Shown here one piece after another: positions 54,242 to 64,000 of a DNA stretch of 64,000 nt. Below the pieces are notes generated by a model. That model had not been told where the DNA came from and ran no database searches. It was given only the letters and a program-made list of their open reading frames with translations. Made by a program: the position numbers and the translations under genes. The number at the start of each line of letters is the position of its first letter. Within the stretch, counting starts at the first letter, position 1. The stretch is from Desulfobacula sp. Lineage in GTDB: Bacteria; Desulfobacterota; Desulfobacteria; Desulfobacterales; Desulfobacteraceae. The stretch spans positions 1-64,000 of the forward strand of contig JAMPXP010000019.1 in NCBI GenBank assembly GCA_023701135.1, written 5' to 3'.

Positions 54242-55201
54242 ATGAAACCGCCTTACGACATAACGAACAGGATACTGCTCCTTTACGGACAGATTACGGA
54301 AGCGCTCGGCTCGTGTAAAAGCCTGTTGCTGATGAAGCCGGAAGCAAGGCTGAGGAAACAGAACAGGATTAAGACGATTCATTCATCGCTTGCCATTGAG
54401 GGGAATACCCTGGATATCGACCATGTAACGGCGCTGATTGAAAATACAAGGGTTGTCGGACCCAAAAAAGACATTCTGGAAGTTCAGAATGCCGTTCGGG
54501 CTTATGATCAACTCGCAGAATTTGATCCATATGCTGCAAATGACTTTTTAAAAGCTCACAAAGTCTTAATGGATGGCTTGGTTGAATCAGCAGGGCGATA
54601 TAGAAAGAAACACGTCGGGATCTTAAAAGGGTCGGAAGTTCAGCATGTGGCACCCGGTTACGCCATGGTGCCGGGGCTGATGAAGGATCTGTTCAGCTAC
54701 ATTAAGAAAGATACGGATATTGATATTATAAAGAGTTGTGTCTTTCACTATGAAATGGAATTCATACATCCCTTTGAAGATGGAAACGGCAGGCTGGGAA
54801 GATTCTGGCAAACACGGCTTCTCATGGAAGTGAACCCGATATTTGAATATGTGCCCATTGAGGAGACAATAAAGAATAATCAGGAACAATATTATAAGAC
54901 CCTGGCCGAAGCCGATCATACAGGGAAATCAACCATTTTTATTGAGTTTATGCTTGAAACCATAAACAAGACCTTACGCAGGACAATTGATGAATCCAAT
55001 CCGGGAACCATTGATTATCAAAAAAGGACGGAGTTCGCACTTGCAGCCCTGGAAGGCTGGTTTGACAGGAAAGACTACATGAAAATAAACAAAGGAATAT
55101 CTACTGCTACGGCAAGCCGTGACCTGAAACAATTGCTTTTGGAGGGAAAAATCGAATCCACCGGTGGAGGAAGAATGACAAAGTATAAGAGGAAGCTGTA
55201 A
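54242..55201 (+). CDS. Fic-family AMP transferase (class II, N-terminal inhibitory helix)
   Basis: A 319-residue protein. HPFEDGNGRLGR is a complete Fic core motif with the catalytic His and the nucleotide-binding Gly-Asn-Gly-Arg. Ser49-x3-Glu53-Gly54 (SLAIEGN) is the inhibitory (S/T)xxxE(G/N) helix, here N-terminal in the same chain, so activity is self-restrained. A C-terminal winged-helix-like part (residues ~260-319) could bind DNA and repress the fic promoter. Targets unknown. Its TTG-initiated neighbour starts two bases after the stop. Confidence 0.92.
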   Translation: MKPPYDITNRILLLYGQITEALGSCKSLLLMKPEARLRKQNRIKTIHSSLAIEGNTLDIDHVTALIENTRVVGPKKDILEVQNAVRAYDQLAEFDPYAANDFLKAHKVLMDGLVESAGRYRKKHVGILKGSEVQHVAPGYAMVPGLMKDLFSYIKKDTDIDIIKSCVFHYEMEFIHPFEDGNGRLGRFWQTRLLMEVNPIFEYVPIEETIKNNQEQYYKTLAEADHTGKSTIFIEFMLETINKTLRRTIDESNPGTIDYQKRTEFALAALEGWFDRKDYMKINKGISTATASRDLKQLLLEGKIESTGGGRMTKYKRKL

Positions 55202-55202
55202 A

Positions 55203-57677
55203 TTGAATCGTCTATCCCTGAAATCAAGGCTCATTGTCAATACCCTGGTCATTCTGACCCTGGCCCTGGGGTTCAATGCCATGCTGACCCTGAATTCCCT
55301 TGAAAAATTTTATGTGGAATCCATTGCCTCCCAGTACAGCGTCGTTGGCAAGGATTTGAAACGCAATATCGAGCGCTCCCTGGGGTTTGGAAAATCCATT
55401 GAAAATTTTGTCGGCATGGAAAAAATCCTGGAAGACACAAAAAGCAATTTAATCCAAAAAAATGTCCGGGATGAGGCAGCCATCCATCTCAGCACTTCAA
55501 CCAGCGATGATGTTTCCGTGTCCATGGCCCTGCCCGACGGCCGGATTCTTTCCAGCACCCGGCCGGATCTGGTCGGCACCCGGCCGGCGGTCCATGCCCG
55601 GATCGATTATAAAAACGCCCCGGATCAGGCTTCGCCCGCCTATATCAAATACAAGGATACCTATGTGACCCATATTTCCATCCGGGATGCCAAGGATGAA
55701 TGGGTGGCCACGGCCATGATCCTGTTTAACCAGGACCAGGTGAAATCCGTTCTGAAAAAGGTCCGGAATCAGAGCATCGCCCTCATTTCAGCCATTCTAT
55801 GCGGGGGAGTGGCGGTTCTGGCCTTGATGTTTCATTTTATGCTGCCGGACAAGACCGGTTCGCCCGGAAAGAACGGCAATTCCTCCAAATTGAAGCTCCA
55901 GGTGATGGTGTTCCTGGTGGTCGGCCTTGCCCAGATTGTGTTTTCAGGCATCAATACCTATTCCTTTAAGACCTATTATCTTGAGATCAACCGGCAGAAA
56001 GCCGGCAGCCTGATCCATCTTTTGAAGGAGGATATCGAATTCCTTCTGAACAGGAATATCCAGATCCACAAACTGGTCAGGATCGATGCGGAATTGAACA
56101 AGATCATCACCGGCTCTCCGGAACTCCGGGAAATCGCCATCCTGGATGCGGACGGGACGCCCCTGTACAGGGCCGTAAGCCCCGAGGCCGGAAACCCAGA
56201 CGCTGGAAACCCAGACGCTGGAAACCTGGCCGGCGGGGCCGGGATCAAGGAGGAAGACCCGTATACCATCCGGGTTGAATTAATGAAGGAAGGCCGCATT
56301 GAAGGCTATATCTCCACCCAAATTTTAAAAAAGGCTTTATTCAAGAAACTCCTGGAAACCGGCCTGGATTCGGCCACCATTATCGTCATCTCCATCCTGT
56401 TTTTCGGGGAACTGCTGGTTCTGGCCTTCCAGTTCATCAATCGTCAGGCAAGGGCTTCGTCGGCAAGGCGAATCCATTATAAGAGCATCCGGCCCATTGC
56501 CTTTTTGTTTCTGTTTTGTATTGATATATCCATTTCATTTCTTCCCCTGCACATGGAAGCCCTTTATAAACCGGTTTTCGGATTTTCCAAGGCCATGGTC
56601 ATGGGGCTGCCCATCTCCATGGAAATGTTTGCTTCGGGCCTTGCCATTCTATGGGCCGGGGTATGGATGGACCGGAGGGGATGGTATGAGCCGTTTTTCT
56701 GGGGGCTGGTGCTCTCCTTTCTCGGCCTGCTGTATTCCTGGGCCGCCCCCAACGCCCTTCAGTTCATTCTGTCCAGGGGGATGGTGGGCGCGGGATACGG
56801 CTTATCCCTCATGGCCGTCCAGGGGTTTGTCATTGTCCACTGTGATGAGAAAAACCAGGCCCAGGGTCTGGCCCAGCTTTTTGCCGGTGTCTATGCCGGA
56901 AGCATCTGCGGCGCCGCCATGGGGGCCATGCTGGCGGAAAGAATCGGGTATAGGATCGTGTTTCTCATTGCCGCCGCCATCCTTGTTCTTTTGATCCTGG
57001 GCATTCTGGTCCTCATGGAGGCTTCCTTTAAACGGCAAAAACCCATGACAGGGTCCCATGACGGGCCCGCCGGGCCGGCGCAGATCCGGGCGTTTTTCTT
57101 TAACCGGAGCATCCTCGGGCTTCTGCTCTTTGGGATCATTCCCAGCGCCACGGCCGTGGTGGGATTTGTAAATTATTTTTTCCCGGTTTACCTGGACCGG
57201 ATCGGCACGTCCCAGTCCAATATCGGCCGGATATATATGGTGTTCGGCCTCTGTCTCATCTATATCGCCCCCTTCGTCGGCAGGATCATGGATGCCTCGG
57301 GCAGTAAGAAAAAATACCTGGTTATGGGCGGGGCCCTGGGCAGCTTTGCCCTTATCCTCTATTATTTTTTCGGCGGCCTTGCCGTTACCGCCGGGGCCAT
57401 CTTTTTGTTGGGCCTTTCCATGTGTTTTGACGCTTCCCGGCCCTATGCCCTGACCTTCAGGGAAACCCGGAACCTGGGCATTGGAAAATCCCTGAGTATT
57501 TTTACCTCCTTTGAGAAAATCGGTCAGATCATGGGTCCTGTTCTCTTCGGGGTCCTGTTCTTGGCAAAGAATCTTCCCCTGGCCCTGGCCTATTTTGGGA
57601 TCGGCTACCTGGCCCTGACCCTGGCGTTTTTCCTCACGGCCCAAAAGGATGGCCCGTCTTCCCCGGATAGCCCATGA
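55203..57677 (+). CDS. MFS-type membrane protein with two N-terminal periplasmic sensor domains
   Basis: An 824-residue protein. Helix 1 (residues ~10-32) leads to a Cache-like periplasmic domain (~35-195); helix 2 (~198-218) and helix 3 (~235-255) are followed by a second periplasmic domain (~258-395) and another helix; then a 12-helix major facilitator part (~425-815). The TTG start at 55203 is supported by GAGGAAG upstream and by helix 1 beginning immediately. The DNA at 56190-56227 encodes AGNPD repeats. The sensors may control transport; substrate unknown. It is coupled to the next gene by an ATGA overlap. Confidence 0.82.
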   Translation: MNRLSLKSRLIVNTLVILTLALGFNAMLTLNSLEKFYVESIASQYSVVGKDLKRNIERSLGFGKSIENFVGMEKILEDTKSNLIQKNVRDEAAIHLSTSTSDDVSVSMALPDGRILSSTRPDLVGTRPAVHARIDYKNAPDQASPAYIKYKDTYVTHISIRDAKDEWVATAMILFNQDQVKSVLKKVRNQSIALISAILCGGVAVLALMFHFMLPDKTGSPGKNGNSSKLKLQVMVFLVVGLAQIVFSGINTYSFKTYYLEINRQKAGSLIHLLKEDIEFLLNRNIQIHKLVRIDAELNKIITGSPELREIAILDADGTPLYRAVSPEAGNPDAGNPDAGNLAGGAGIKEEDPYTIRVELMKEGRIEGYISTQILKKALFKKLLETGLDSATIIVISILFFGELLVLAFQFINRQARASSARRIHYKSIRPIAFLFLFCIDISISFLPLHMEALYKPVFGFSKAMVMGLPISMEMFASGLAILWAGVWMDRRGWYEPFFWGLVLSFLGLLYSWAAPNALQFILSRGMVGAGYGLSLMAVQGFVIVHCDEKNQAQGLAQLFAGVYAGSICGAAMGAMLAERIGYRIVFLIAAAILVLLILGILVLMEASFKRQKPMTGSHDGPAGPAQIRAFFFNRSILGLLLFGIIPSATAVVGFVNYFFPVYLDRIGTSQSNIGRIYMVFGLCLIYIAPFVGRIMDASGSKKKYLVMGGALGSFALILYYFFGGLAVTAGAIFLLGLSMCFDASRPYALTFRETRNLGIGKSLSIFTSFEKIGQIMGPVLFGVLFLAKNLPLALAYFGIGYLALTLAFFLTAQKDGPSSPDSP
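56190..56227 (+). repeat. 15-bp tandem repeat within the MFS-sensor gene
   Basis: GGAAACCCAGACGCT occurs twice in direct succession with a partial third copy. The unit is a multiple of three and encodes GNPDA repeats in a linker of the second periplasmic domain, so copy number can change without a frameshift. Confidence 0.8.
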
Positions 57678-59143
57678 CACCTGACGCCTTATTGGATCTT
57701 GCCTGCAAGGGCCTGCCAAAGGTCGGCCGGATCATCGGGCAGTACGGGGATCTGTCCCTGCCCGGCTATCTTGAAACCCTTGTCCCGGATGCCGGAACCC
57801 CTTCCTATCAGCCGAGAAAGGATTTGCTGGAGGTGGTGCGTCAGTATATTGAGCCTTTGCTGGGGCTTGATGCTGCAAAGACGGCAGTGCAGGACCTGGA
57901 GGAACGTCCCGTGGTCCTGACGGCATCCCATTTCGGGGTGGAATATTTTGCCCAGACCTTTCAGGGCCGGGTCATCTTCGCACTTTCGGCCCTGAAAAAG
58001 CAGATCCCCACCTTCCTGACCTTTGCCTGCGGAAATATTCCCCTTAACAATGCCGTCTTTCCCAGGGGCGCCCTGATTTACCAGGGCAGGCCCGAAGATC
58101 TGGACCATCTGCCCGTGCGGTTGCCTGTTTTTCCGGAACGGCTCAAAAGAACCATCGTCAATGCAGCCCCTGCCTTTGACCGGGATATGGTGGACCGGGC
58201 CGGGGCAAGATTCAGCCGGATGGCGGCGGAGCAAGATATCCCGCCCGGGGTTTGTGATGCCCTGCATCATATCCTTGAAGACATGTATGGGAACCCTACG
58301 GTTCTGGCTCTGTCTTCCTATTCAGACCAGTCTGTTGTCGTGAACCGGTTGATCTGGAAGCGGATTTTCAAAGGCATGGACAGTGCCCCGGAGTCAATCT
58401 GCCTGGAGTTTGAACGCATTGCAGGCCGGCTTCTGGAAATGGATCTCTTTAATCCCCAAAGCCTGGCCGGGCTCATCCTGTTTGACCCTGACCTGAGGGA
58501 GGGGGTTTTGGCGGAGCTGTCTTCAACCTGGGGGCCTGTTTTTTTCTGGGGAATGGATGATGCAGGACGGAAATTTTCCCTGGACCTGGAGGCAGGGAGT
58601 TCCGGTATCCCGTCCTTTTCCGGCCTGGATGACAAGGGCCGGTCCCGGCAATGGCCCTGTACTCCCGAAGCCTTGCAGGCTGGGATATCTGAAGGCCGTC
58701 TCCTTCCCTCCCTGTTTTTGTGCTTTGCCGTTCTCTTGTTTGCCCGGGGCCTGACCTGTATCGGCGGCTATCTCCAGGGAGAATACCTTCCGGCCATGCA
58801 AAGGGGCCTGGTCCGGGCCCTGGAAAAGATCCGGAAATATGAGACCTTGGCCGGTTTCGTGGCCCGGGCCCGGACCGATGCCTATGTGGACGGCATGCTG
58901 GCGGTCATGGCCAGGGTGGGGGATCATCTGGTGCCGGCCGGGCCTGTTGAACTGATGGCCGGTGGAATGACCCTGGCCGATATGGATCACCTGTCCCGGC
59001 TCACGGTGCGGGAAGCTCACCTGGCAGACCTCTTCGAGACCCTTCAGGATGCCGTCCCGGCCGATACCCTTCCCCACGGATGGAAACGGCAATGGGCCAA
59101 GGATACCTTCCAATCCTTGAAAGATAAGGTGGTGATGAAATAA
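57674..59143 (+). CDS. Protein of unknown family coupled to the MFS-sensor gene
   Basis: A 489-residue soluble protein without a signal peptide. I do not recognise any family. Visible features are VVLTASHFGVEYFAQTFQG near residue 80, SALKKQIPTFLTFACGNIPLNN near 105, ALSSYSDQSVVVNRLIWKRI near 215, and a hydrophobic, possibly buried LLPSLFLCFAVLLFARGLTCIGGYL segment near 345 (short blocks). The conserved-looking HFG and CGN elements suggest an enzyme. The ATG overlaps the MFS stop (ATGA). It converges with the binding-protein gene 7 bases away. Confidence 0.8.
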   Translation: MTPDALLDLACKGLPKVGRIIGQYGDLSLPGYLETLVPDAGTPSYQPRKDLLEVVRQYIEPLLGLDAAKTAVQDLEERPVVLTASHFGVEYFAQTFQGRVIFALSALKKQIPTFLTFACGNIPLNNAVFPRGALIYQGRPEDLDHLPVRLPVFPERLKRTIVNAAPAFDRDMVDRAGARFSRMAAEQDIPPGVCDALHHILEDMYGNPTVLALSSYSDQSVVVNRLIWKRIFKGMDSAPESICLEFERIAGRLLEMDLFNPQSLAGLILFDPDLREGVLAELSSTWGPVFFWGMDDAGRKFSLDLEAGSSGIPSFSGLDDKGRSRQWPCTPEALQAGISEGRLLPSLFLCFAVLLFARGLTCIGGYLQGEYLPAMQRGLVRALEKIRKYETLAGFVARARTDAYVDGMLAVMARVGDHLVPAGPVELMAGGMTLADMDHLSRLTVREAHLADLFETLQDAVPADTLPHGWKRQWAKDTFQSLKDKVVMK

Positions 59144-59150
59144 GATCCGT

Positions 59151-60314
59151 CTATTTTCTGGCCGGTTTTATTTCCGTATAGATTTCATCGGCTGATCCCA
59201 ACACATCCACGGGCGGGTCATATTGAATCAATTCGGCGGTCTTGAGGTTGATGGCAATTTTAGGCGGTTCTTCAAACAATTGATCCAGTTGTCCGGGTTT
59301 GGCCCCATTGAATATTTTGGCCATGCTTTCTGCAAAAAACCGGCCCACATATTTCCAACTGGCCTGGGAGATGCTCATTAAAAATCCGGCCTTGACTTCA
59401 TCGGAACTGGCCTGGGCAAAGGTGGGGATCTGGGCCGCAGTGACAATCTTCACCAGTTCGGGAATGCTGCCCGGGTTGACCCCGTTCTGGGCCGTGACAT
59501 AGATGGCATCCACTTTCCGGCTCAGGTCCCGGAAACATTTTTTTACAGTTTCTTCAGCCAGCTTCACATCCGGGATCTCATCCTGGGTATGACAACGGAC
59601 CACTTCAAACCCGAGTTGCTTGGATAATTTTTCAATGTCATGAATGGCGGCGTAAGCTCTGCCGGCCTTTGTGTCGGCATAGGCCACCCCTAAGGTTTTA
59701 AATCCGATGATGTCGTGAAACACCCGGATCTGTCGTTCATACCGGAAGGGGTCCACCTGGGCCATGACATGATCAAACCCGGAATCCTCCCGGCTTTTTA
59801 CGATCCCTGCGCCAATGGGGTCTGAGGAAGAGATCACAAGGGTGGGGGTGCTGTGGCGGTTATTGGCCAGGCCCTGGCCGGCCGTGGTGCCCGCGGCGAT
59901 CATCAGGTGGATGTCCTTTTTCGTGTTCAGGCGGGAAATGATGGTTTCAACGGTTTCCCTGGTCCGGGCCTCATCCCAGTCGGCGCTGTAATGGCCGTCC
60001 TCGGCAAATTCGATATAATCGCTTGTGATGTTTTTCCCCAGCCATTTCCAGAGGTCGCGGGTCTGCTCTCCCTGTTGTTCCGGGATATCCATGGGGCGTA
60101 TCCAGCCCAGGGCCATTAATTCTTTTACGGTGGCCATAAAAACCTGCTGGTAATCCAGATATTCTCCGCCTTCATAATAGCCGACCCGCCATTTTTTCTC
60201 ATGGTTTGTTTTCGGCGTGACGCTGAACTTCCCCTTATCCTGGGCCGTTGCCGGCCAGACAGAAATACATGCAAACCAGAAAACCATGAGCCAGATCTTA
60301 AAAATGAATTTCAT
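59151..60314 (-). CDS. Periplasmic ABC-type substrate-binding protein (TrpX-like family)
   Basis: A 387-residue protein with a signal peptide (cleavage near residue 24, after ATA). RVGYYEGGEYLDYQQVFMA, MIAAGTTAGQGLANN, PTLVISSSDPIGAGIV and AIYVTAQNGVNPGSIPEL fit the DUF534/TrpX-like binding-protein fold that binds small amino acids or related ligands. No ABC permease or ATPase gene is in the window, so it may act as a sensor partner. It follows the racemase-like gene by 45 bases on the same strand. Confidence 0.82.
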   Translation of the reverse strand: MKFIFKIWLMVFWFACISVWPATAQDKGKFSVTPKTNHEKKWRVGYYEGGEYLDYQQVFMATVKELMALGWIRPMDIPEQQGEQTRDLWKWLGKNITSDYIEFAEDGHYSADWDEARTRETVETIISRLNTKKDIHLMIAAGTTAGQGLANNRHSTPTLVISSSDPIGAGIVKSREDSGFDHVMAQVDPFRYERQIRVFHDIIGFKTLGVAYADTKAGRAYAAIHDIEKLSKQLGFEVVRCHTQDEIPDVKLAEETVKKCFRDLSRKVDAIYVTAQNGVNPGSIPELVKIVTAAQIPTFAQASSDEVKAGFLMSISQASWKYVGRFFAESMAKIFNGAKPGQLDQLFEEPPKIAINLKTAELIQYDPPVDVLGSADEIYTEIKPARK

Positions 60315-60359
60315 TGTTTCCCCTTTCCCAATTTACAGCCGCATTCTTTTTAAAGGCCC

Positions 60360-61427
60360 TCAGTAGTGATAAACAATATCCGTAAACGGACTCATAAAGG
60401 CCTGGAGCATGCTGATATAGTTCATTTTAAATTCGACAAAATCACCGGGCTTTAAGGACCTTTGGCTGTCCGTGTAATCAATGACGGTATAATTGCTGTT
60501 GACGCAGACAATGAAAACCCCCCCATCCAGAGGCCTGAGCCCCAGGGGATAGGTATCGGAAATGCCGAAATTCAGAATGGCCCTTTTCCGTTTGCCCTTA
60601 AAAGCGGCCACAGGGCTGAACCCCAGGGCATCCACCCCTGAATGCGGGCAAGGGCCGACATTTTTTTCCTGGGTTTCCAGGACATCTCCTTTGAATATCA
60701 GAACATCATCATGCAGATGTTCATGTTTACGGCAAAAGGCCGGGATATTCCCGAGAAAAATGGCTTCACCCAGCCTGATCTGGTTGATCCTGTCCGGCAG
60801 GCCATGGGATTTAAGCCATTCAAGGAAAACAGACCCGCCCACGGAGACGGTTTCAACGGCAATGCCCAGCCGGGTTTCGATTTCAAGGGCCAGGTCCTGC
60901 AAGATCAGGACATTTTCTTCATCGGGCACCATTCCGGCGCAGCATCCCAGGTTTGTCCCGATGCCGGAAAAGCCGAGCCTTCGATCCCTGATGTCATGGA
61001 TTTTTCTTACGGTATCCACCACATTTTCCGGCAGCACCCCTTCCCGCAGGTCGCCGGTATCCACCATCAGGATAATGTTGTGGGAACGGTTTTCAGCAAC
61101 CAGGACCTCATTGATCCTCTGGATGACGGATATTTCGGAATTGAGGCTGGTGCCGAAATGCCGGACCATTCGAGGGATTTCGTGAATGGAGGGCAGGGAT
61201 ATGAAAACCGGTTTCTGGGGCAGGGTTTCATCATGGGGTCCGGTCCTGGGGATGCTGGAAAAACCAAAGGTCTCTATGCCGTTTTCCCTCATGGTCCGGA
61301 TGATGGCGGAATCCGGCCCCGGCCCTTTGAGTATGCCCATCATATCAAGGCCTGCGGCTTTGCAGGAGCGGACCAGGAAGCGGATATTACGGGCCAGTTT
61401 TTCGATGTCTACCGTCAGTTGAGCCAT
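60360..61427 (-). CDS. PLP-dependent ornithine/alanine racemase-like protein
   Basis: A 355-residue fold-type III PLP enzyme of the YhfX/ornithine racemase branch. Lys34 in GILKGPG is at the position of the PLP-binding lysine; SLNSEISVIQRINE, ILMVDTGDLREG, GIGTNLGCCAGMVPDEEN and NQIRLGEAIFLGN match this branch more closely than alanine racemase. The substrate amino acid is uncertain; relatives racemise ornithine. It is between the SpoIIE phosphatase and the binding protein, suggesting a linked signal or metabolite. Confidence 0.85.
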   Translation of the reverse strand: MAQLTVDIEKLARNIRFLVRSCKAAGLDMMGILKGPGPDSAIIRTMRENGIETFGFSSIPRTGPHDETLPQKPVFISLPSIHEIPRMVRHFGTSLNSEISVIQRINEVLVAENRSHNIILMVDTGDLREGVLPENVVDTVRKIHDIRDRRLGFSGIGTNLGCCAGMVPDEENVLILQDLALEIETRLGIAVETVSVGGSVFLEWLKSHGLPDRINQIRLGEAIFLGNIPAFCRKHEHLHDDVLIFKGDVLETQEKNVGPCPHSGVDALGFSPVAAFKGKRKRAILNFGISDTYPLGLRPLDGGVFIVCVNSNYTVIDYTDSQRSLKPGDFVEFKMNYISMLQAFMSPFTDIVYHY

Positions 61428-61468
61428 GCCTGTCCTTTTATACCATCCGAAAAAATAAATAAACCGGT

Positions 61469-63481
61469 TTAGGGGCGTTTTCCATTATATTTGATCATGA
61501 GCATGGCAATATCATCGGACTGGGGTGCGAGCCCTGAATGGTCCTTGATGCTGCCCAGGACCCGTTTGATCATTTCATCCGGAGGGGCGTCCTTGTTCTT
61601 TTGGATGCGGGCCAGCAGGCGCTGGTTGGAATATTGTTCCCCATCCAGGTCCATGGCTTCATTCACCCCGTCCGTATAAAGGAAAAACCCCTCTCCGGGA
61701 GACAGGGTGAATTCCAGATCCGTATAGGTCATTCCGGCCATGGCCCCGACCAGGGGTTCATTTCTTCCTTTTCTATAATATGCCTCTCCCTCCCCTGGAA
61801 TCACAATGGGCGGGTTATGACCGCCGTTGGCATATTGGATTTGCCCGGTCCGGATATTCAGGATGCCGATGATCAGGGTGACAAACATGGCCCTGGGGTT
61901 GTCCTGGCTCAGGATATTATTGATATTCACCATCATTTGGGAGGGAGAATGGATTTTTTCGCTCAGGGTCCGGATCAGGGTCCGTGTCACCACCATGAGC
62001 AGGGCCGAAGGGACTCCCTTGTCCGATACATCCCCCAGGGTAAAACACAGGCGGTCCTCATCCATGAGGAAGAAATCATACAGGTCTCCGCCGATCTCCT
62101 TTGCCGGCATCAGGGTGGCATAGAGGTCAAATTCCGTATACTGGGGAAAGGAAGGAAAGGTTTTGGGCACCATGCCGAGCTGGATTTCCCTGGCAATGCT
62201 GAGTTCGCTCTCGATCCGCTCCCGGGAAGCCGTGGCGGTGATCAGGTTTAATATATTACGGCTCAATTCCCGGCGCATTAAAATAAAGGATTCGGCCAGG
62301 GCCCCCACCTCGTCCTTATATTTGGCAGGCAGTTCATCAATGGGGGTTTCAGAGGCCAGGGGTTTGGTAAAATCCAGTTCCGGGATTTCTTTTGCATAGG
62401 AGGATAAAAGGTTTAAAGGCTTTGCGATACGGATCACCAGAAGGATGACCACCGCCAGCCCGGTCATGAACAGAATCGTGGTGATCAGGCTCTGCCTGAC
62501 CACCAGGGTCCGGGCCGGGGCGTTGATTTCATTCACCGGGACAAAAACCGCCGTATACCATCTGAGCGGTTTGAAATAATTGCAATATACGATCATCTCG
62601 GTTTCATCCGCGTTGGAGGAAACGACCCGGAGTTTTGACATCTCTGATCCTGCCGCAGCTTTGATGTCGTCATAGATGGTATTTTGGGTCAACCTGTTTT
62701 TGGACAGATGGATATCATTTTTGATGTGGTCCGGCGGCGGGATCAGGATGGTGCCCTCTGCATCAAACATATACACGAACCCGTTCTTTGTGATGGTCAA
62801 CTGCCTGGAAAATTCCGTGAGGGAGGCCCGTATTTTTTCCAGTTTTGCCTGGGCTTCGGCTTCAATATCACTGATGTCGATGGAGGTGGCAAGGGTATAC
62901 CGCCATGGGTCCATGGGCAGGAAATGGGCGAGAACAGACCTTTTTTTACCCTCTCCGGTTTCAAGGACAAAGCCGGCATAATCTCCCTGTTTTTTAAGAT
63001 TGTCAAAAGACATGACACGGGACAGGGTCTGGTGCTTGGTATCCTTTAACGCTTTCCAGGCTTCCGTGGTAATGGTATTGCCCGAGCTTGCGAGAATGTG
63101 AGCGTCTTTATCGATGATAAAATAGGCGATTTCTCCGAAAGGCGCTGAGGCCAGCCATTGGATGGCCTGGTCCGCGGTCCTGTCCCGGCCGTTTTTTTCC
63201 CCGCCGCAATAGCCCTTGAAAACCGATTCGATCATATGGGATGCGTCTTTTAACTGCTGCCGTTTCGAAAGGGTCATGGTTCTCTTGTCGGATAAAAGGT
63301 TGTGGTAGTCGTCCCGGATAATGATATCCAGGGAGTGGAGGATATTGGCGGCAGACTTTTCCTGGGCCAGGAGCATGGCATTTCCCACATCCCGGTGCGT
63401 AAAATAGATAATGACAACCGCACAGACCACCATGACCAGGGTGACAAAGAAGATGATTTTTCCTTTGATTGTTGAAAACAT
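61469..63481 (-). CDS. Cache-HAMP-SpoIIE serine/threonine phosphatase
   Basis: A 670-residue membrane protein. Helix 1 (~8-28) and helix 2 (~330-352) flank a large periplasmic double-Cache-type sensor; a HAMP domain follows (~353-425) and then a PPM/SpoIIE phosphatase (~450-665) with the metal-binding EIGGDLYDFF, LGDVSDKGVPSALLM and SDDIAML. SpoIIE phosphatases usually act on anti-sigma antagonists in partner-switching pathways; none is visible here. AAAGGACATC precedes the ATG at 63481; an earlier start at 63514 is less likely. Confidence 0.93.
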   Translation of the reverse strand: MFSTIKGKIIFFVTLVMVVCAVVIIYFTHRDVGNAMLLAQEKSAANILHSLDIIIRDDYHNLLSDKRTMTLSKRQQLKDASHMIESVFKGYCGGEKNGRDRTADQAIQWLASAPFGEIAYFIIDKDAHILASSGNTITTEAWKALKDTKHQTLSRVMSFDNLKKQGDYAGFVLETGEGKKRSVLAHFLPMDPWRYTLATSIDISDIEAEAQAKLEKIRASLTEFSRQLTITKNGFVYMFDAEGTILIPPPDHIKNDIHLSKNRLTQNTIYDDIKAAAGSEMSKLRVVSSNADETEMIVYCNYFKPLRWYTAVFVPVNEINAPARTLVVRQSLITTILFMTGLAVVILLVIRIAKPLNLLSSYAKEIPELDFTKPLASETPIDELPAKYKDEVGALAESFILMRRELSRNILNLITATASRERIESELSIAREIQLGMVPKTFPSFPQYTEFDLYATLMPAKEIGGDLYDFFLMDEDRLCFTLGDVSDKGVPSALLMVVTRTLIRTLSEKIHSPSQMMVNINNILSQDNPRAMFVTLIIGILNIRTGQIQYANGGHNPPIVIPGEGEAYYRKGRNEPLVGAMAGMTYTDLEFTLSPGEGFFLYTDGVNEAMDLDGEQYSNQRLLARIQKNKDAPPDEMIKRVLGSIKDHSGLAPQSDDIAMLMIKYNGKRP

Positions 63482-63507
63482 GATGTCCTTTCTCTTTTTA
63501 TTCAAAC

Positions 63508-64000
63508 CTACCATACAAACGAAAATTCAATGGGCCCGGAACCCGGAAAAACCGATTCCGGCGGTAAAACTGAAATATGAAAGACCCGGCCGTCAGGGGA
63601 GGCCTTGCCTGTGTTTGCCACATCAATGATTCGGGGAAGGCCGTGGCCGGTTTGGGTAAAGATGCGGGTGAGTGCAAGACGGATCTCATCCCCGGGATCG
63701 TCGGACGTCTTTGTCCTTCGGGCATGAAGCAGGGCTTCAACCATCCGGTTCATCAGCAGTTGAAATGTTATGGAATCCCCGGTCAGAGCGGCGGCCTTGG
63801 GGATACAGGCCGTGTCCTTGTGCTTTATTCCGGCCATGGGGGTAATTCCCGCCTCAATAAGCTGCAGGATTCTGTCTTCGGAAAAAAGCGTCTGGGTGGA
63901 AGCCGTATTTTTTTCATCACAGGCGGCCATGGCCAGGTTTTCCATTTGATACGCCGGATACCGGGTGAATTCCAGGGGCCAGCCTGAAGCTGCAACCGAT
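63508..64000 (-). CDS. C-terminal part of an unrecognised protein, open at the right edge
   Basis: The reading frame is open from the right edge to the stop at 63508 (164 residues); an ATG at 63945 is probably internal because the frame continues upstream with coding-like sequence (WPLEFTRYPAYQM). The layout, with MAGIKHKDTACIPKAAAL, a helical middle and a strand-rich end (VFHISVLPPESVF, IEFSFVW), is faintly like the C-terminus of type VI secretion sheath proteins of the TssC group. That resemblance is weak. It lies 26 bases upstream of the SpoIIE gene and is probably co-transcribed. Confidence 0.55.
   Translation of the reverse strand, partial: SVAASGWPLEFTRYPAYQMENLAMAACDEKNTASTQTLFSEDRILQLIEAGITPMAGIKHKDTACIPKAAALTGDSITFQLLMNRMVEALLHARRTKTSDDPGDEIRLALTRIFTQTGHGLPRIIDVANTGKASPDGRVFHISVLPPESVFPGSGPIEFSFVW

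Follow-up and report, generated by a model that had tools for sequence, protein, structure and literature searches.

The question raised by the right-hand end of the 64,000-nucleotide stretch of Desulfobacula sp. DNA analysed here (the window; C41:1-64000, part of a 4.8-Mb genome) is what function is served by five genes that lie together within 9 kb and encode a transporter with periplasmic segments, a protein of no named family, a periplasmic binding protein, a racemase-like enzyme and a SpoIIE-type phosphatase. The initial annotation had arranged them in two convergent units, linked by proximity, and had proposed that an amino-acid-related signal is sensed outside the cell, modified by the racemase and moved by the transporter. 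It can now be confirmed that the five genes form one conserved cassette, and we give an even chance to the reading in which this cassette produces a small amino-acid derivative, sends it out of the cell, perceives it there and informs a neighbouring injection machine, here a type VI secretion system (T6SS). The five genes are as follows.

55203-57677, plus strand: sensor-MFS, a major facilitator superfamily (MFS) protein (MFS_1, E 1.5e-27) with extra transmembrane helices predicted from hydropathy
57674-59143, plus strand: HP489, a 489-aa protein of an unnamed family, characterised by a 49-row alignment and by comparison of the slot that it fills
59151-60314, minus strand: an orphan periplasmic substrate-binding protein (SBP) of ABC_sub_bind type, from the ABC_sub_bind profile
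60360-61427, minus strand: an Orr-like racemase of the Ala_racemase_N family, a fold-type III pyridoxal phosphate (PLP) enzyme, from Ala_racemase_N and a match to NF040742 below its cut-off
61469-63514, minus strand: a dCache_2-HAMP-SpoIIE sensor phosphatase, from Pfam-type domain matches and conserved Asp residues

All five lie where they had originally been placed and profile scans bear out their families. The MFS and HP489 genes overlap by 4 nt, HP489 and the SBP gene converge with 7 nt between them, and gaps of 41 nt and 45 nt separate SpoIIE from the racemase and the racemase from the SBP. The binding protein had been described as lacking ABC partners, and a scan of the seven proteins encoded from 54.2 to 64 kb showed no ABC permease or ATPase; HP489 had been described as a protein without a known family, and it has no match in Pfam or NCBIfam up to E 0.1, nor is any family found at its cut-off among its relatives. 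Whether the two convergent units belong together was approached through co-occurrence. Relatives of HP489 were found in 12/97 relatives of the window genome, 7/395 genomes of the phylum (two of these matches being doubtful), 11/37 genomes of one family and 27/247 Desulfovibrionia genomes, each set including the genome around which it was drawn. HP489 scores at least 100 bits in 55 of the 57 loci mapped, and among those 55 are 33 that extend for at least 6 kb on both sides; a doubtful match of 27 bits in G328 (L058) and a match with internal stop codons in G388 (L057) were not counted at this threshold. Within 6 kb of HP489 in the 33 full-context loci lie the sensor-MFS (32), an SBP (29), a dCache-type SpoIIE phosphatase or kinase (23) and a racemase or epimerase (19), and it is not the case that the two units occur independently in most genomes. 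The layout of the window is shared by the Desulfobacula-group genomes and G536, in G041 and G055 the order is SpoIIE-racemase-MFS-HP489 on one strand with the SBP convergent, and in nine Desulfovibrionaceae loci SpoIIE, MFS, HP489, racemase and SBP follow one another on a single strand. Since the five genes recur in differing orders and on differing strands, the link between the two units is no accident of this window.

What HP489 might do is best approached by asking what else is found in its place. Cassettes without HP489 came to light in searches with the SBP and the sensor-MFS. The count covers 81 of the 92 loci fetched; in the other 11 no sensor-MFS reached 150 bits and 450 aa. HP489 is present within 3 kb of the sensor-MFS in 46 of the 81 loci, a formyltransferase in 15, a GNAT in 9, a GCS2 ligase in 5 and none of the four in 6, such that exactly one of them occurs in 75/81 and two together in none, in a sample that is not random since many of the loci were found through HP489. 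The labels were assigned mostly by phmmer to one seed each, and Pfam confirmed 1/5 GCS2 ligases, 5/9 GNATs (plus that of L181) and 2/15 formyltransferases; L181 was scored as having none, though a GNAT adjoins others of its four MFS copies, as was L197, though its MFS is followed by an open reading frame (ORF) that resembles a GNAT by eye. If Desulfovibrionia genomes with SctR over its cut-off (49/247) are taken to possess a type III secretion system (T3SS), the GNAT loci belong to the two Azospirillum plasmids examined and to seven T3SS-positive genomes of one genus (L172-L178), and the GCS2 loci to Aureimonas and four Desulfovibrionia loci (L190-L193). The formyltransferase loci include the T3SS-positive G577 and G593, with thirteen more made up of twelve in T3SS-negative genomes and one second copy in the T3SS-positive G662. 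Loci from 18 of the 22 T3SS-negative, HP489-negative genomes with a sensor-MFS were fetched, as well as second copies carried by G521 and G662. No HP489 was found in the 32 HP489-negative Desulfovibrionia loci searched, and neither GCS2 nor GNAT was found in HP489 loci; one HP489 locus, L119, has a weak formyltransferase match of 39 bits, below threshold and more than 4 kb from the MFS. Amino groups are common targets of GCS2 ligases, GNATs and formyltransferases. Because these enzymes fill the same slot, HP489 most likely also acts on amino groups, and it is a candidate for the amide-forming enzyme of the cassette. A separate observation concerns eleven loci (L184-L187, L195, L196, L198, L199, L201-L203) in which an MFS gene is accompanied by a convergent formyltransferase gene, with an SBP in 10/11; no SpoIIE is among the neighbours shown and they often stand beside a membrane protein that is prohibitin-like by eye. 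These perhaps constitute a second, T3SS-free cassette lineage.

The HP489 family itself is strongly conserved. In the 49-row alignment Q219, D257, W292, G364, G365 and Y371 are invariant, and H86 is present in 90% of rows. The copy in the window has an in-frame gap of about 31 aa, including a GCW motif, around residue 283; the same gap occurs in the sister genome G016, and these two are the only rows of the 49 without the tryptophan of that motif. Because these residues are missing, the window's copy may differ in activity. A Desulfobacula metagenome-assembled genome (L026) encodes an HP489 that is 92% identical to that of the window, no relative was found in viral contigs and phages, and in G041 a second HP489 copy is accompanied by DapF without an MFS. 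Assignment to a known enzyme was considered and set aside, as the best Pfam match among 14 relatives was an unconvincing one to 4HBT (E 0.035, in two relatives).

The racemase had been thought of as the enzyme that modifies the signal. Its membership of Ala_racemase_N is clear (53.7 bits against a gathering score of 24.1) and a candidate PLP lysine, K34, is conserved in 18/18; the closest named family, to which it aligns over nearly its full length, is NF040742 'ornithine racemase Orr', and with 252.6 bits against a cut-off of 480 it falls outside that family. Its place may be taken by other enzymes. Instead of the Orr-like PLP racemase of the window, G072, G035, the second copy in G041, G096 and G388 (L057, one of the five DapF seeds) have a DapF-like epimerase below the DapF cut-off, and G047 has an MR_MLE enzyme of the enolase superfamily; the Orr-like and DapF-like types occur together in 0/33 full-context loci. 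The view that a racemase is obligatory was rejected, as one lies within 6.5 kb of the sensor-MFS in 35/81 loci and is missing in 46/81. The racemase is an optional partner that can be replaced by unrelated enzymes.

Another possibility is that the racemase and HP489 make a metal chelator, which the MFS would export and the SBP would return. The staphylopine and staphyloferrin A systems are the model for such nutrient scavenging, and DapF-like or Orr-like racemases in company with an MFS resemble them; in G047 the MR_MLE enzyme stands next to an Opp-type ABC importer beside the cassette. In the window, however, the SBP has no ABC partner and the cassette proteins contain no IucA/IucC, nicotianamine-synthase-like or opine dehydrogenase domain, and the recurrent neighbours of the cassette are secretion and partner-switching genes, metal transport genes not having been systematically searched. 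A metallophore therefore appears very improbable.

The SpoIIE domain of the phosphatase scores 163.6 bits against a cut-off of 25, and D477, D495, D615, D667 and D668, which we take to be PP2C metal ligands, are invariant in 27/27. The SBP belongs to the fold family of TrpX-type ABC_sub_bind proteins and lies outside TrpX proper (NF041285, 75.7 bits against a cut-off of 390); it occurs within 6.5 kb of the sensor-MFS in 73/81 loci. In the sensor-MFS, two predicted periplasmic segments (approximately residues 34-191 and 251-382) are framed by four extra transmembrane helices predicted from hydropathy, and the MFS core starts at about residue 431. It had been claimed that both the phosphatase and the MFS protein carry periplasmic sensor domains; this holds for the phosphatase, with its clear dCache_2 domain, and is less certain for the MFS protein, for which sCache_3_2 gave a weak match in 2/10 homologues (best E 2.3e-4) and no Cache domain was matched in the window's own protein. 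Two unusual forms of the gene were seen elsewhere. At L056 104-2422 (G354), on a contig that begins inside the gene, the first periplasmic segment seems to have given way to part of an SBP, fused to the rest of the MFS, and at L181 8748-19089 (G647) four sensor-MFS genes form a tandem array, two of them being separated by a GNAT gene.

It may be asked whether these components need do more than sense the surroundings. The SBP and the dCache domain could read an external amino acid that the MFS imports or clears and that the racemase and HP489 degrade or detoxify, with the phosphatase tuning the T6SS or T3SS to nutrient or host cues. The loci without a racemase suit such an account, and dCache domains commonly bind amino acids; D-serine has, moreover, been studied in relation to the niche specificity of E. 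coli and the regulation of its LEE T3SS (PMC4366372, PMC4456613). Against this, the known enzymes on the MFS side, GCS2, GNAT and formyltransferase, are amide-forming and not degradative families. In addition, a relative of HP489 on a plasmid of Streptomyces sp. NBC_01423 (L027), whose gene overlaps that of an MFS, lies in what seems to be a biosynthetic cluster, among genes for ATP-grasp, DapF-like, LysA-like and amidinotransferase proteins, and the MFS is nearest to exporter profiles, all of these NCBIfam matches being below their cut-offs. Making and export are favoured over the modification of an external signal because so many MFS loci hold exactly one of the four enzyme families and the racemase is optional, and sensing alone is rather unlikely. 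An amino-acid-related signal, as the initial annotation had supposed, is still the best guess, whilst its notion of an external signal modified by the racemase gives way, since the MFS-side enzymes point to making and export.

To whom such a signal might be reported is suggested by the neighbourhood. The boundary first drawn around the system was too narrow; when the contig is followed to the right, the next minus-strand gene is sheath-like and shares 7 nt with SpoIIE, its stop overlapping the SpoIIE start; it is the first gene of a T6SS locus that continues to approximately 92.6 kb of C41. The link to T6SS and T3SS and the pair of partner-switching genes beyond this locus were both absent from that first description. 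The flanking features are as follows.

C41:63508-64944, minus strand (its 3' part, 63508-64000, in the window): a divergent VipB/TssC-like T6SS sheath gene (VipB, E 3.6e-17)
C41:92845-93189: a STAS protein, directly after the T6SS genes and about 29 kb from SpoIIE
C41:93190-93594: a HATPase_c_2 kinase, directly after the STAS gene
54242-55201: a Fic-family gene, from a domain match, ending just 5' of the sensor-MFS start

The sheath-like gene scores 62.8 bits against 27 for VipB, and 46 bits for TIGR03355, below the cut-off of 271.5. Further along the same contig are core T6SS genes, namely TssC over its cut-off, VgrG, a Clp-type AAA ATPase, an IcmF-type TssM, PAAR-like, VipB-like and TssG genes; TssA, B, E, F, J, K, L and Hcp were named by reading only. 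Membership of the Fic gene in the cassette is unsupported, no homologue being present in the other loci compared. A short way past the STAS-kinase pair that ends the T6SS region are a PALP-family PLP enzyme (C41:94945-95940; L124 9946-10941) and an Asp/Glu racemase (C41:95994-96707; L124 10995-11708), further amino-acid chemistry at the far end of the T6SS locus. The locus also encodes a 260-aa protein (C41:74884-75666; L123 9885-10667), a relative of which (147 bits) lies one gene from an SBP-MFS pair in G599, where STAS- and kinase-like ORFs are on the other side and TssC is about 33 kb away on the contig. Among the 97 relatives TssC is present in 8/12 genomes with HP489 and 22/85 others (p 0.007), and HP489 and TssC share a contig only in the window genome.

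In the Desulfovibrionia it is T3SS with which the cassette is associated. A 'Desulfo' family of T3SS has already been described (PMC3459982). HP489 occurs in 21/49 T3SS-positive and 6/198 other genomes (Fisher 3.7e-12) and the sensor-MFS in 59/247, comprising 32/49 T3SS-positive and 27/198 others (Fisher 1.8e-12), both values being too small owing to related genomes in a set that was itself drawn around an HP489-positive genome. One of the six HP489-positive genomes outside the T3SS-positive set, G691, has SctV-U beside HP489. In 19/57 mapped loci the stretch fetched includes T3SS export genes; in nine of the 19, SctU and an NtrC-type gene are followed by the whole cassette on the same strand, and in six SpoIIE alone follows these two genes whilst the other cassette genes face it, as far as the contig shows. 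On a tree of HP489 from the 49/57 mapped loci that reach 150 bits and 380 aa, the T3SS label requires 8 changes and falls, on our reading, in four separate parts, in a count that leaves out twelve short-contig loci, two of which lie outside the tree anyway. The window genome gave no match to SctR at E 1e-58 and the window adjoins T6SS and not T3SS.

A possible means of communication between cassette and machine is partner switching, in which STAS and kinase proteins work with SpoIIE phosphatases (PMC8256260). A STAS antagonist and a HATPase serine kinase are encoded with the injection system of the window, as in the btr system of Bordetella. A STAS-kinase pair was surveyed in 17 regions from HP489-positive genomes, in L145 from the HP489-negative G034 (no pair) and in 20/28 HP489-negative T3SS-positive genomes. 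It follows SctR, with midpoints at most 1.1 kb apart and on the same strand, in 14/17 of the HP489-positive regions, and G719, a fifteenth HP489-positive genome, has STAS and kinase genes next to SpoIIE. The pair was rejected as a mark of the cassette, as it is also found in 15/20 HP489-negative T3SS-positive regions, 7 of these 15 genomes being without a sensor-MFS at E 1e-60. Since it is found without the cassette, the pair belongs to the machine and partner switching needs no cassette. The STAS-kinase pair is thus the machine's own, and the cassette supplies the sensing phosphatase.

The nearest published parallel is the Bordetella btr locus, btrS-A-M-N-U-O-alr-btrW-V, which is listed as regulating T3SS (PMC7498569, Table 3) and of which BtrU, BtrV and BtrW are reported to be all needed for T3SS secretion (PMC8256260, PMC7498569). 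The same table gives alr (alanine racemase), BtrO (MFS), BtrN (ABC transporter) and BtrM (gamma-glutamylcysteine synthetase) as being of unknown function. In B. pertussis the alr of the btr locus is reported to be raised together with T3SS genes in liquid culture after exposure to blood (PMC7828420), and the review PMC7498569 was the only open-access paper found to contain four or more of BtrO, BtrM, BtrN, BtrU, Bordetella and type III secretion. Both btr and the window combine SpoIIE, an MFS, a racemase, an ABC-type protein and STAS plus serine kinase at an injection-system locus, a likeness in kinds of gene taken from the published list, no Bordetella sequence having been compared. They differ in that btr has the GCS-like BtrM where the window has HP489, in that btr accompanies T3SS whereas the window lies beside T6SS (a T3SS neighbour being seen in the 19 HP489 loci mentioned above), and in gene order; btr also includes BtrS, an ECF sigma factor, and BtrA, no search aimed at either having been made in the window. 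By analogy the cassette would work like a btr-type regulator in function, whilst as a member of that type it differs in two features here, BtrM and the T3SS neighbourhood.

Two plasmids provide further comparisons. On pAU20a of Aureimonas sp. AU20 (L148), which belongs to a different phylum from the window genome, an MFS gene and an enzyme gene converge on those of an SBP and a dCache-SpoIIE protein as in the window (identities of 46% for the SBP, 30% for the MFS and 32% for SpoIIE), and a T6SS locus a few kb away holds STAS and an ATP-binding protein. It is unlike the window in having a GCS2 ligase for HP489, no racemase annotated beside the cassette, and 7.6 kb, with no overlap, between SpoIIE and the first T6SS gene, tssG. 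Plasmid pDEVAL01 of Nitratidesulfovibrio vulgaris RCH1 has SBP-MFS-HP489 and a T3SS with an annotated SctR-STAS-ATP-binding protein series; it differs in that no racemase or SpoIIE was recognised in the 20.5 kb around SBP-MFS-HP489, and SctR is about 34 kb from HP489. Among the open-access papers listed, none was found to describe the cassette, HP489 or the T6SS link, subscription journals and most preprints lying outside the search.

That such cassettes are plasmid-borne in N. vulgaris and Aureimonas, that their distribution is patchy, as the phylum count shows, and that their flanks differ among close relatives could mean that the cassette and the injection systems are accessory cargo gathering in the same islands, with no functional link. 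It is, however, difficult to square with chance accumulation that in nine loci the cassette stands right behind SctU and an NtrC-type gene and is read in the same direction, that the HP489 tree, as we read it, shows linkage to T3SS in four separate parts, that a second phylum has such a cassette with a T6SS nearby, and that SpoIIE and the STAS-kinase pair, a matched set, are divided between cassette and machine. Hitch-hiking is accordingly held to be improbable.

What has been observed is the gene content and its conservation, the linkage to T3SS and T6SS loci, the STAS-kinase pair, the mutual exclusion of the modifying enzymes among the fetched loci, and conserved candidate catalytic residues. 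With a functional link between cassette and machine preferred, we infer the compound, its chemistry, the direction of transport, the ligand-binding protein and the effect on the T6SS as follows. The racemase would supply a D-amino acid, which HP489 would modify at its amino or carboxyl group, as a GCS2-type ligase, GNAT or formyltransferase would elsewhere. The sensor-MFS would export the product, its periplasmic segments reading occupancy outside, and the orphan SBP would capture it and present it to the dCache domain of SpoIIE or to the MFS. SpoIIE might then dephosphorylate the STAS protein, which would exchange its partner in concert with the HATPase_c_2 kinase, whose gene lies at the far end of the T6SS locus, and in this way the expression or activity of the injection machine would be set.

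A number of observations weigh against this scheme, in addition to the bias in sampling and the relatedness of genomes already described, the many loci without a racemase and the occurrence of STAS-kinase pairs where HP489 and the sensor-MFS are lacking. HP489 has no match in the PDB by phmmer or by profile, hhalign to GshA, YbdK and the Aureimonas GCS2 protein gave a probability below 0.5%, and an AlphaFold model built on the window and L026 sequences only reached a pLDDT of 33 and was unusable. A SpoIIE or kinase sensor is missing within 6.5 kb in 39/81 sensor-MFS loci, and 27/59 sensor-MFS genomes have no T3SS as judged by SctR. The overlap of cassette and T6SS is seen in one HP489 genome, and in the Desulfovibrionia there is no enrichment for T6SS with either HP489 (4/27 vs 61/220, Fisher 0.17) or the sensor-MFS (10/59 vs 55/188, Fisher 0.06). 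T6SS was consequently dropped as a general partner of the cassette, and the genome-level claim in that group is for T3SS only.

A broader view, which is tentative and on balance doubtful, is that these loci represent a widespread and unrecognised class of self-signalling circuit, in which an N-modified, often D-, amino acid is made by enzymes that can stand in for one another (HP489, a GCS2 ligase, a GNAT or a formyltransferase, accompanied or not by a racemase of PLP, DapF or enolase type), exported by a dedicated sensor-MFS, captured by an orphan SBP and read by a dCache-SpoIIE phosphatase that gates T3SS or T6SS through partner switching; HP489 would then be a new amide-forming family and the btr accessory genes part of a circuit of the same kind. 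As it stands the HP489 family has no name, its residues are in part strongly conserved and PDB searches found no structural relative for it; the enzymes that exclude one another lead to the prediction of an amino acid with an amide-type modification, such that the signal can be sought directly. If the proposal is true, two unrelated kinds of injection machine would share a plug-in chemical signalling cassette, and four accessory genes of the Bordetella btr locus would gain a testable role in making, exporting and perceiving one small molecule.

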